This document shows, one piece after another, positions 21,504 through 23,459 of a stretch of DNA of 47,402 nucleotides (within the stretch, counting starts at the first letter, position 1; every line of letters starts with the position of its first letter). The position numbers were made by a program, and so were the translations under genes. The notes beneath the pieces were generated by a model, which saw only the letters and a list, made by a program, of their open reading frames with translations, was not told the origin of the DNA and did not search any database. Location: positions 1 through 47,402 of the forward strand of contig CAIOGM010000067.1 of NCBI GenBank assembly GCA_903857795.1, read 5' to 3'. The DNA is from an uncultured Geobacter sp. (GTDB lineage: Bacteria > Desulfobacterota > Desulfuromonadia > Geobacterales > CAIOGM01).

Positions 21504-21532
21504 TTGACAGACATGGTGGCAGGCAGTATAGT
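21504..21532 (+). promoter_or_regulatory. Strong sigma-70 promoter of the OmpA-family gene
   Basis: A perfect TTGACA (21504-21509) is separated by exactly 17 bases from TATAGT (21527-21532). The start would be near 21540, giving a leader of about 95 bases with the ribosome site GAGGAGG at 21626-21632. Confidence 0.8.
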
Positions 21533-21635: not shown

Positions 21636-22838
21636 ATGAGTATGAAGAAGAAAATCGCAGGTATGATTGCCGTCCTGCTGGTAGCCACAGCAGGCGCTGC
21701 CAGCGCCGAGCAGAGAGCAGGAGCGTTTACGCTCTCACCGTTCGTTGGTGGCTACACGTTTGACGGTGTGCAATCCCTTGAAACGAGGCCGACATATGGC
21801 CTGCGGCTCGGGTATGACATCACCAAGAACCTGGGAGTTGAAGCGACCTTCGGCTACGTCAACAGCAAGAGCACCGGGAACCCGAAGTCCATCGCGGGCG
21901 CCAATAACGTCAACGTCTACAACTACCGGCTCGAGGGGATCTACAACTTTATGCCCCAGAGCAAACTCGTCCCCTTCGTGGCGTTTGGCGCCGGTGGCAG
22001 CTCGATCACCAATATGGCTAACAAGTCTCATCAGGGCAACAACAATGACGCCACGGCGGATGCCGGCGCCGGCATCAAGTATTTCCTCAGCGAAGATGTT
22101 GCTCTCCGTGCCGATACCCGCGCCATCATGTCGTTCCACGGTTCTCCGGCATTCCAGATCAGAAGTACCGATTACTGGATCAACTACGAGTACACCCTCG
22201 GACTCCAGTTCCAGTTCGGCGGGAAAAAAGCGGTAGTTGCGAAGGTTGTTGAACCGCCCCCGCCCGCACCCAAGGCAGTTGAGCCGGCGCCGGCGCCCGC
22301 ACCCGTCCCAGTGGCGGTTGACGGCGTGGTTGGCGCATGGTCTGACTGGAGCTCCTGCTCCGCTCCGTGTGGCAGCGGCACCCAGACACGCACCCGTCCG
22401 GTGGTGACCCAGCCGGCCAACGGCGGCACAGCACTGCCGACCCTGAGTGAGAGCCAGAGTTGCAATCCCCAGGCCTGCATGGAAGAAGAGAAGGTCAACC
22501 TTCTCATCGAATTCGACTTCAACAAAGCGGTCATCAAAAAAGAGTTCTATCCGAATGTGGATGCCATCGGCAATTTCATGAAGAAGAACAGCAAGATGAA
22601 GATCACACTTGAAGGATGGACCGACTCCATTGGCTCCGACAAATACAACAAGAAGCTCTCCCAGAAGCGCGCCGATGCCGTCAAGGCCTATCTTGTGGAC
22701 AAGTTCAAGATCGACGCTGCCCGCATCACCGCCGTCGGCAACGGCAAGAGCGTCAAGTACGACAACAAGAACGCCGCCGGTCGCTACAAAAACCGCCGCG
22801 TCGAGATGAACCAGACGGTAATGGTCGAGAAGAAATAG
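21636..22838 (+). CDS. OmpA-family outer-membrane protein with an embedded thrombospondin type-1 domain
   Basis: This 400-residue protein starts with a signal peptide (1-24, ending AGAASA). Residues 27-196 look like an eight-stranded outer-membrane beta-barrel, with alternating aromatic/hydrophobic strands and an FQFG end. A proline/alanine-rich linker follows (205-228). Residues 233-281 form a thrombospondin type-1-like module, GAWSDWSSCSAPCGSGTQTR, with cysteines 241, 245, 276 and 281. Residues 288-391 are an OmpA C-terminal domain (LIEFDFNKAVI and the helix with LSQKRADAVKAYL, ending in NRRVEM), which binds peptidoglycan non-covalently. The protein should therefore tie the outer membrane to the cell wall. 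The TSP1 module is probably periplasmic, or else surface-exposed if the topology differs. A strong promoter and a strong terminator flank it, consistent with high expression. Confidence 0.92.
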   Translation: MSMKKKIAGMIAVLLVATAGAASAEQRAGAFTLSPFVGGYTFDGVQSLETRPTYGLRLGYDITKNLGVEATFGYVNSKSTGNPKSIAGANNVNVYNYRLEGIYNFMPQSKLVPFVAFGAGGSSITNMANKSHQGNNNDATADAGAGIKYFLSEDVALRADTRAIMSFHGSPAFQIRSTDYWINYEYTLGLQFQFGGKKAVVAKVVEPPPPAPKAVEPAPAPAPVPVAVDGVVGAWSDWSSCSAPCGSGTQTRTRPVVTQPANGGTALPTLSESQSCNPQACMEEEKVNLLIEFDFNKAVIKKEFYPNVDAIGNFMKKNSKMKITLEGWTDSIGSDKYNKKLSQKRADAVKAYLVDKFKIDAARITAVGNGKSVKYDNKNAAGRYKNRRVEMNQTVMVEKK

Positions 22839-22858
22839 ACTCTTCCGACCAGACTGAC

Positions 22859-22900
22859 AAACGAGAATGGCCACACCGTAAGGTGTGGCCATTCTCGTTT
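22859..22900 (+). terminator. Long-stem terminator after the OmpA-family gene
   Basis: A perfect 19-base-pair stem (22859-22877 with 22882-22900) closes a GTAA tetraloop. The tail is only TTTG, but the left arm begins with AAA, so the structure is symmetric and may end transcription in both directions. It lies 20 bases after the stop codon. Confidence 0.75.
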
Positions 22901-22958
22901 GTGGTCACGGCGAGCATACGGCGCTCAGTCCCTCCCTCTGCCGGTTCCGGAAATGCTC

Positions 22959-23051: not shown

Positions 23052-23459
23052 ATGAAAGTAGTATTAGCGTCCTTGACAGTTTTACTTCTCACTGCAGTCA
23101 ATTCCTCAGCAATGGAGTGGATCATCGTGCCGGGTGCACAGGCGGGCGGTGACATGATCTGCCTCGATCGTGACAACGTGACCAAGGAGAAAGGGATAGT
23201 TACGGCCTGGCTCAAGCGGTTCAAGGAAGAGGGGAACTATTCCAAGACCCTGATTGAGGTCGACTGCTCCAAACAGAAGACGCGCCTGGTCAAGGCTCTT
23301 GAATTCGACAAAGTGACTAATATCACCACTACCGTCGATTTCGAACCGCTCTGGGAGACGAGCGCTCCCGAAACACCGGCCCGGGCAGCGGCCCAGATGA
23401 TCTGCAAGAAAGGGAAAGGAATCAATCCGGCGCTGGTCAACATCAAGCAGAAACCGTAG
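23052..23459 (+). CDS. Small secreted protein, surface-adhesin E-like
   Basis: This 135-residue protein has a clear signal peptide (MKVVLASLTVLLLTAVNSSA). The mature part has a pattern that I associate with the surface-adhesin E-like family: an early tryptophan (MEWIIV), a D-x-N segment after a glycine turn, a central WLKRF, an aromatic Y, and DC in IEVDCSKQKTR. The cysteines at about 37, 73 and 117 could form a disulfide. No enzymatic motif is visible. AGGAGAA precedes the ATG. It has no clear operon partner, because a terminator lies upstream and glgP begins about 195 bases downstream. Confidence 0.65.
   Translation: MKVVLASLTVLLLTAVNSSAMEWIIVPGAQAGGDMICLDRDNVTKEKGIVTAWLKRFKEEGNYSKTLIEVDCSKQKTRLVKALEFDKVTNITTTVDFEPLWETSAPETPARAAAQMICKKGKGINPALVNIKQKP

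Follow-up and report, generated by a model that had tools for sequence, protein, structure and literature searches.

A thrombospondin type 1 module in the linker of an OprF/OmpA-family protein from a Geobacterales genus

Introduction

Thrombospondin type 1 (TSP1) domains are best known from animal proteins and adopt a rod-like fold with a layered Trp/Arg core. What, then, is such a domain doing in an envelope protein of a bacterium? The question is raised by P0001, an OprF/OmpA-family protein of 400 aa plus stop that is encoded on the forward strand (21636..22838) of the window analyzed here, a 47,402-nucleotide stretch of a contig from an uncultured Geobacter sp. A sequence-only reading of this DNA had proposed that a TSP1-like module with four cysteines (22332-22478) sits between an outer-membrane barrel and a wall-binding domain, and that it serves in adhesion or as a periplasmic spacer. 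We find that P0001 is a real, conserved and lineage-restricted variant of a known tether, in which a fold known chiefly for extracellular recognition serves, by all signs, a structural purpose within the envelope of a bacterium.

Domain architecture and genomic setting of P0001

The first 25 residues of P0001 look, as judged by eye, like a signal peptide. They lead into an OprF-type outer-membrane β-barrel (21714..22226, forward strand; residues about 27-197), which is recovered by PF05736 (61.5 bits against a cut-off of 23.5, covering positions 3-183 of the 184 in the profile) and PF13505 (58.3 bits; cut-off 28.7). Next come a Pro/Ala-rich linker evident from the sequence (22227..22319, forward strand; residues 198-228), the spondin-type TSP1 domain with its four cysteines, identified by Pfam and supported by a structural model of the module (22326..22478, forward strand; residues 231-281), and an OmpA domain of the peptidoglycan-binding type (22512..22796, forward strand; residues 293-387) that matches PF00691 at 71 bits (cut-off 27.2; profile positions 2-98 of 98). 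The proposed placement of the module between the two envelope domains is thus borne out, with the Pfam OprF membrane domain spanning residues 3-197 and the OmpA domain 293-387; the N-terminal 8-strand barrel is recognized here by profile, without a strand count. D330 and R345 of the OmpA domain are invariant in the alignment of all four genus members, and we take them to be the Asp/Arg pair that binds diaminopimelate in other OmpA proteins. Since the full-length structural model, computed from the four genus sequences, has a mean pLDDT of just 38.4 and was left unused, the topology of P0001 rests on the profiles. P0001 is the sole full-length representative of its family in its own genome: the search gave three matches at E<=0.001, and apart from P0001 itself they cover the OmpA domain alone. 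Two other genomes of the genus (G001 and G003) each code for a second homolog, with thrombospondin type 3 (TSP3) repeats in the linker (L013 and L014).

The in-frame segment 22332-22478 corresponds to residues 233-281, contains WSDWSSCSAPCGSGTQTRTR and contributes the cysteines C241, C245, C276 and C281. Two Pfam profiles detect it above their cut-offs: TSP1_spondin (PF19028) at residues 231-281 with 58.9 bits (cut-off 41; E 5.9e-16) and TSP_1 (PF00090), the profile that had been named as a check, at residues 234-281 with 40.5 bits (cut-off 21.6; E 3.1e-10). PF19028 has no match at E<=0.001 in any of 14 control genomes, and PF00090, at a looser E<=1, has matches in 8 of the 14, none above cut-off. 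In its own genome P0001 provides the one TSP_1 match above cut-off, another (E 0.0285) lying below it in a 74-codon frame. A phmmer search of PDB sequences matches the module to thrombospondin-1 (E 3.5e-13), and the residues of its WxxW/RxR core, W235, W238, R252 and R254, are invariant in 4/4 genus members. Structure prediction, the other check that had been put forward, points the same way. An AlphaFold2 model of the isolated module, built from 18 aligned sequences, has a mean pLDDT of 89.9, with strands predicted at model residues 21-27, 29-31 and 43-49 and a two-residue bridge at 4-5, and it resembles solved TSP1 repeats. In a Foldseek search the best 50 of 96 rows (E<=10) are entries of TSP1-repeat proteins; the top match has an E-value of 3.9e-3 (probability 1.00) and none of the rows listed reaches 0.001, modest values that are expected for a query of 56 residues. 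VIA-align superimposes the model on thrombospondin-1 (3r6b) with a Z of 6.8 and an rmsd of 2.0 over 55 residues; a Z below 8 can on its own reflect a common arrangement, and here every listed row with Z > 3.5 comes from TSP1-repeat proteins, complement proteins among them, and the sequence profiles concur. The module is a real TSP1 domain, with the elongated three-stranded fold being its predicted form.

The gene is preceded by a sigma-70-type promoter, TTGACA-17-TATAGT (21504..21532, forward strand), with 11 of 12 consensus bases. The scan returned this one site against 0.9 expected from shuffles, by itself within chance, and both hexamers are identical in all four aligned genus members. The earlier proposal that a strong promoter points to an abundant protein has this conserved promoter in its favor, and P0001 may be abundant. 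Directly 3' of the gene lies a perfect 21-bp inverted repeat with a GTAA loop (22857..22902, forward strand), a possible terminator that is not among the sites of a T-run terminator scan; each of the three relatives has an inverted repeat of 18-22 nt at the matching position, with partly different arm sequences. The conserved promoter and the 3' repeat suggest that P0001 is transcribed as a single gene. Further downstream, a gene for a 135-aa protein (23052-23459) keeps its place in 3/3 relatives. At two of these loci (L049 and L050) no further gene of the window was matched in flanks of about 3.3 kb on the upstream side and 3.6 kb on the downstream side (frames of at least 80 codons, E<=1e-8), and the third (L048) offers 0.3 kb of upstream sequence for comparison. 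Contamination or chance capture in a single genome was considered and rejected, as proteins 71-76% identical to P0001 occur in three other assemblies of the genus; the common downstream gene (59-64% identity), the promoter hexamers and the 3' inverted repeat also oppose it.

Distribution and provenance of the module

TSP1_spondin is found at E<=0.001 in 4/4 genomes of the genus, always at the position it has in P0001. Beyond the genus it is sparse, in keeping with the earlier description of TSP1 as scattered in bacteria: it occurs in 5 of 141 genomes of the order, four of them in a P0001-type protein, in 5 of 277 of the class and, in a draw of 395 genomes from the phylum, in 4. In the one remaining genome of the order, the TSP1-like domain scores below cut-off and belongs to a small protein of a different family, rich in cysteine and secreted-looking (L016:1321-1890, reverse strand). 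A scan of the collection with a six-row TSP1 alignment yielded 40 genome loci, three of which, all from the genus of P0001 (L048-L050), combine TSP1 and OmpA in one frame. By HMM, an OmpA domain is present in four of 74 TSP1-bearing frames (L016, L043-L110 and the window), again L048-L050 plus P0001, although some of the 74 are cut by contig ends and further cases may be missed. No description of a TSP1 domain within an OmpA protein came up in the titles and abstract openings of a partially covered literature.

The P0001 module is 43-66% identical to 44 aligned prokaryotic and phage rows from outside the genus, which share the pattern DCxVSxWSxWSxCSxxCGGGTQTRTRxVxTxPxNGGxxCPxLxExxxCNTQxC. It was probably drawn from this prokaryotic/phage pool; direct capture from an animal is less likely, because identity to the thrombospondin-1 structures is about 40%. 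A phage donor within the pool is not favored, since most phage domains lack the third and sixth cysteines of the family (C3 and C6), both of which are kept in P0001. As a counterpoint, the two most similar rows outside the genus, L088 (66%) and L090 (64%), are phage rows, albeit with fewer aligned residues. Annotated phage records gave no match to the module at E<=1e-3. The viral metagenomic contigs (L088-L110) carry TSP1 modules, in some cases several per protein. A PHROGs scan of eight viral TSP1 ORFs matched two to tail proteins, L088 to the central tail fiber J (E 1.8e-9) and L102 to a minor tail protein (E 6e-4), and six to nothing; it is possible that these viral modules bind receptors.

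Patterns of cysteine loss

Spondin-type TSP1 repeats have six cysteines, paired as C1-C4, C2-C5 and C3-C6. The four cysteines of P0001 occupy the C2, C3, C5 and C6 positions, and we call its domain a variant because C1 and C4 are replaced (xCCxCC); the full six are typical of animal repeats, and the Pfam score does not demand them. The alignment of domains from the fetched loci contains all six cysteine columns and places this variant in context. Its 244 domain rows reduce to 178 distinct ones with columns 8 and 49 filled, which are not independent, given repeats within one protein and phage clades. All six cysteines are present in 53 of the 178, 64 have CC-CC- (neither C3 nor C6), and in 34 the sole gap is at C1, with C4 present, many of these having a shifted cysteine. 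The P0001 pattern is confined to four domains, all from its genus (4/4 genomes). C3 and C6 behave as a unit, with both present in 96 domains, neither in 68 and one of the two in 14. When cysteines in columns 26-33 are counted as C1, both C1 and C4 are present in 158, neither in five, C4 alone in 11 and C1 alone in four, so that with 15 exceptions among 178 this linkage is the weaker one. A single phage domain (L100) lacks both the C1/C4 and the C3/C6 pairs. Paired absence fits the loss of whole disulfides, and the pairwise loss of cysteines documents, in natural domains, which disulfides of TSP1 are dispensable.

By the same logic, the positions of the four remaining cysteines in P0001 suggest two disulfides, C2-C5 and C3-C6. 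These are not assured, because in the genome (G000) neither DsbB nor VKOR gives a match at E<=0.001, and the DsbA match is partial and below cut-off. Hg-disulfide has been detected by Hg EXAFS in the periplasm of Geobacter sulfurreducens (PMC12915048), which makes disulfides in that compartment plausible.

A variable slot between barrel and OmpA domain

At E<=1e-20, homologs of P0001 occur in 131 of the order's 141 genomes. We read 28 of them (L013, L014, L017-L042), the best-scoring loci rather than a random sample. Their linkers were sorted by eye, and 10 of the proteins were also scanned against Pfam. The slot filled by TSP1 in all four genus genomes holds it in 0/28 of these other homologs. 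Instead, in 17 of them one or two Ig-like modules separate the barrel from the OmpA domain; three have TSP3 repeats (L013 scores above the Pfam cut-off, L027 scores below it, and L014 is assigned by likeness); three have a second OmpA domain in tandem (L018 and L033 by Pfam, L040 by eye); and in five the slot is Pro-rich or unrecognized. 'Ig-like' is a working label, since the matches of the module to PDB chains are weak, the best being 30 residues of an 'Immunoglobulin-like domain protein' at E 3.6e-5; five of these homologs were scanned against Pfam without a match to an Ig family at E<=0.01, L036 giving just a sub-cut-off C6 match. The Ig-like modules (L017, L021, L024, L032, L036 and 12 more) mostly have two cysteines.

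Trees of the flanking domains, in which several branches are long or open, give differing accounts of how the slot came to vary. The five linker labels need eight changes on the barrel tree and five on the OmpA-domain tree, the least possible being four. Outside its own group, the P0001 barrel is closest to that of a double-OmpA protein (L018; 99/98), and the OmpA domain to that of an Ig-type protein (L032; 96/99). On the OmpA tree the TSP1-bearing proteins group as a single clade (100/99); on the barrel tree, support for their single origin is weak (75/96; 72% of bootstrap trees). Exchange of the linker on more than one occasion seems to explain the barrel tree better and is less clear on the OmpA tree, so we hold the exact history as uncertain. 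Linker lengths range from 38 to 200 residues across 32 proteins (in L038 the barrel end is misplaced and the length too high), a spread that makes a role as a fixed-length ruler unlikely and led us to reject it. The homologs with TSP1, TSP3, Ig-like or OmpA modules in the slot amount to natural module swaps, with which generic-spacer and specific-function accounts of OmpA-family linkers become directly testable.

Functional implications

In the OprF/OmpA topology the 8-strand barrel has both its ends in the periplasm and is followed by a C-terminal domain that binds peptidoglycan; for this reason the TSP1 module of P0001 should be periplasmic. P0001 very likely connects outer membrane and cell wall. 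In the OmpA family it is a periplasmic domain that couples the two (PMC11648852, PMC6572160). We consider that the TSP1 module is probably a periplasmic spacer within this envelope tether, and it looks like one of several linker modules that can stand in for one another. Together with the Pro-rich stretch it would form the linker from barrel to OmpA domain, a short, rod-like, cross-braced and stiff element beside a flexible Pro-rich hinge, which may hold the wall-binding domain away from the membrane and withstand proteolysis. The slot it occupies is taken in homologs of the order by Ig-like modules, by TSP3 repeats or by a second OmpA domain, and in some it holds no recognized module.

Among the genus members pN/pS is 0.22 for the TSP1 module, 0.22 for the barrel and 0.34 for the Pro-linker, ratios that are rough because synonymous differences are high (pS 0.50-0.65). 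By this measure selection holds the module as tightly as the barrel and more than the Pro-linker. Such strong conservation is also compatible with a specific binding role, a counterpoint to the spacer reading. In such a role the module would bring a partner to the tether, be it a cytochrome, a lipoprotein of the envelope or a glycan of the wall, and its retention in all four genomes and barrel-like purifying selection would be accounted for. We nevertheless regard this as rather unlikely, given that unrelated modules fill the slot in homologs, that the module is near neutral in charge (-1 in P0001, +1 in three relatives) and that no partner gene is indicated in the flanks examined, where the downstream 135-aa gene alone keeps its place and may itself encode a partner. 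A particular form, in which a perhaps disulfide-poor module is the periplasmic protein-binding arm of the genus's main tether and recruits, for example, an electron-transfer protein, strikes us as a long shot. The same selection data weigh against a domain acquired by chance, shorn of one disulfide pair and now neutral filler: the joint absence of C1 and C4 in 4/4 members and the lack of a canonical DsbB or VKOR match in the genome would suit this idea, but the module is more constrained than the adjoining Pro-linker, its four cysteines and WxxW/RxR core are invariant in 4/4, and we judge it very unlikely.

The adhesive half of the original proposal fares worse than the spacer half, to which the expected topology and the varied slot lend support. 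An adhesin would need a conformer that exposes the linker and C-terminal domain, so that TSP1 could bind extracellular glycans or minerals. A minor open conformer has reportedly been described for Pseudomonas OprF, and TSP1 repeats are adhesive in animals and apicomplexans. Yet the linker of P0001 comes after the barrel and before an OmpA domain with the invariant D330 and R345, and there is one module, without repeats. Animal TSP1 repeats that bind glycosaminoglycans are basic, and the near-neutral charge of the P0001 module gives nothing to suggest a basic groove for glycans. Surface adhesion is thus highly improbable, and a periplasmic spacer remains the reading that we favor.

Comparison with known systems

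P0001 shares with the OprF/OmpA family (PF05736 + PF00691), typified by Pseudomonas OprF, the succession of barrel, Pro-rich linker and OmpA domain, and differs from it by the TSP1 module in the linker; Pseudomonas OprF reportedly has a cysteine-bearing, TSP3-like linker at the corresponding position. Among its homologs in the order, the Ig-linker proteins (such as L017, L024 and L032) have a homologous barrel and OmpA domain with one or two Ig-like modules where P0001 has TSP1. The module itself is like the TSP1 repeats of thrombospondin-1 and F-spondin in its profile matches, predicted fold, WxxW/RxR core and C2, C3, C5 and C6, but lacks C1 and C4, occurs as a single copy and is expected in the periplasm. 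With the prokaryotic and phage TSP1 domains (L051-L087 and L088-L110) it shares 43-66% identity and a common pattern; most of these keep C4 and either C1 or a shifted cysteine, unlike P0001, and most of the phage forms lack C3 and C6, whereas P0001 lacks C1 and C4. Among the 74 frames with TSP1, of which some are truncated where a contig stops, none from outside the genus carries an OmpA domain.
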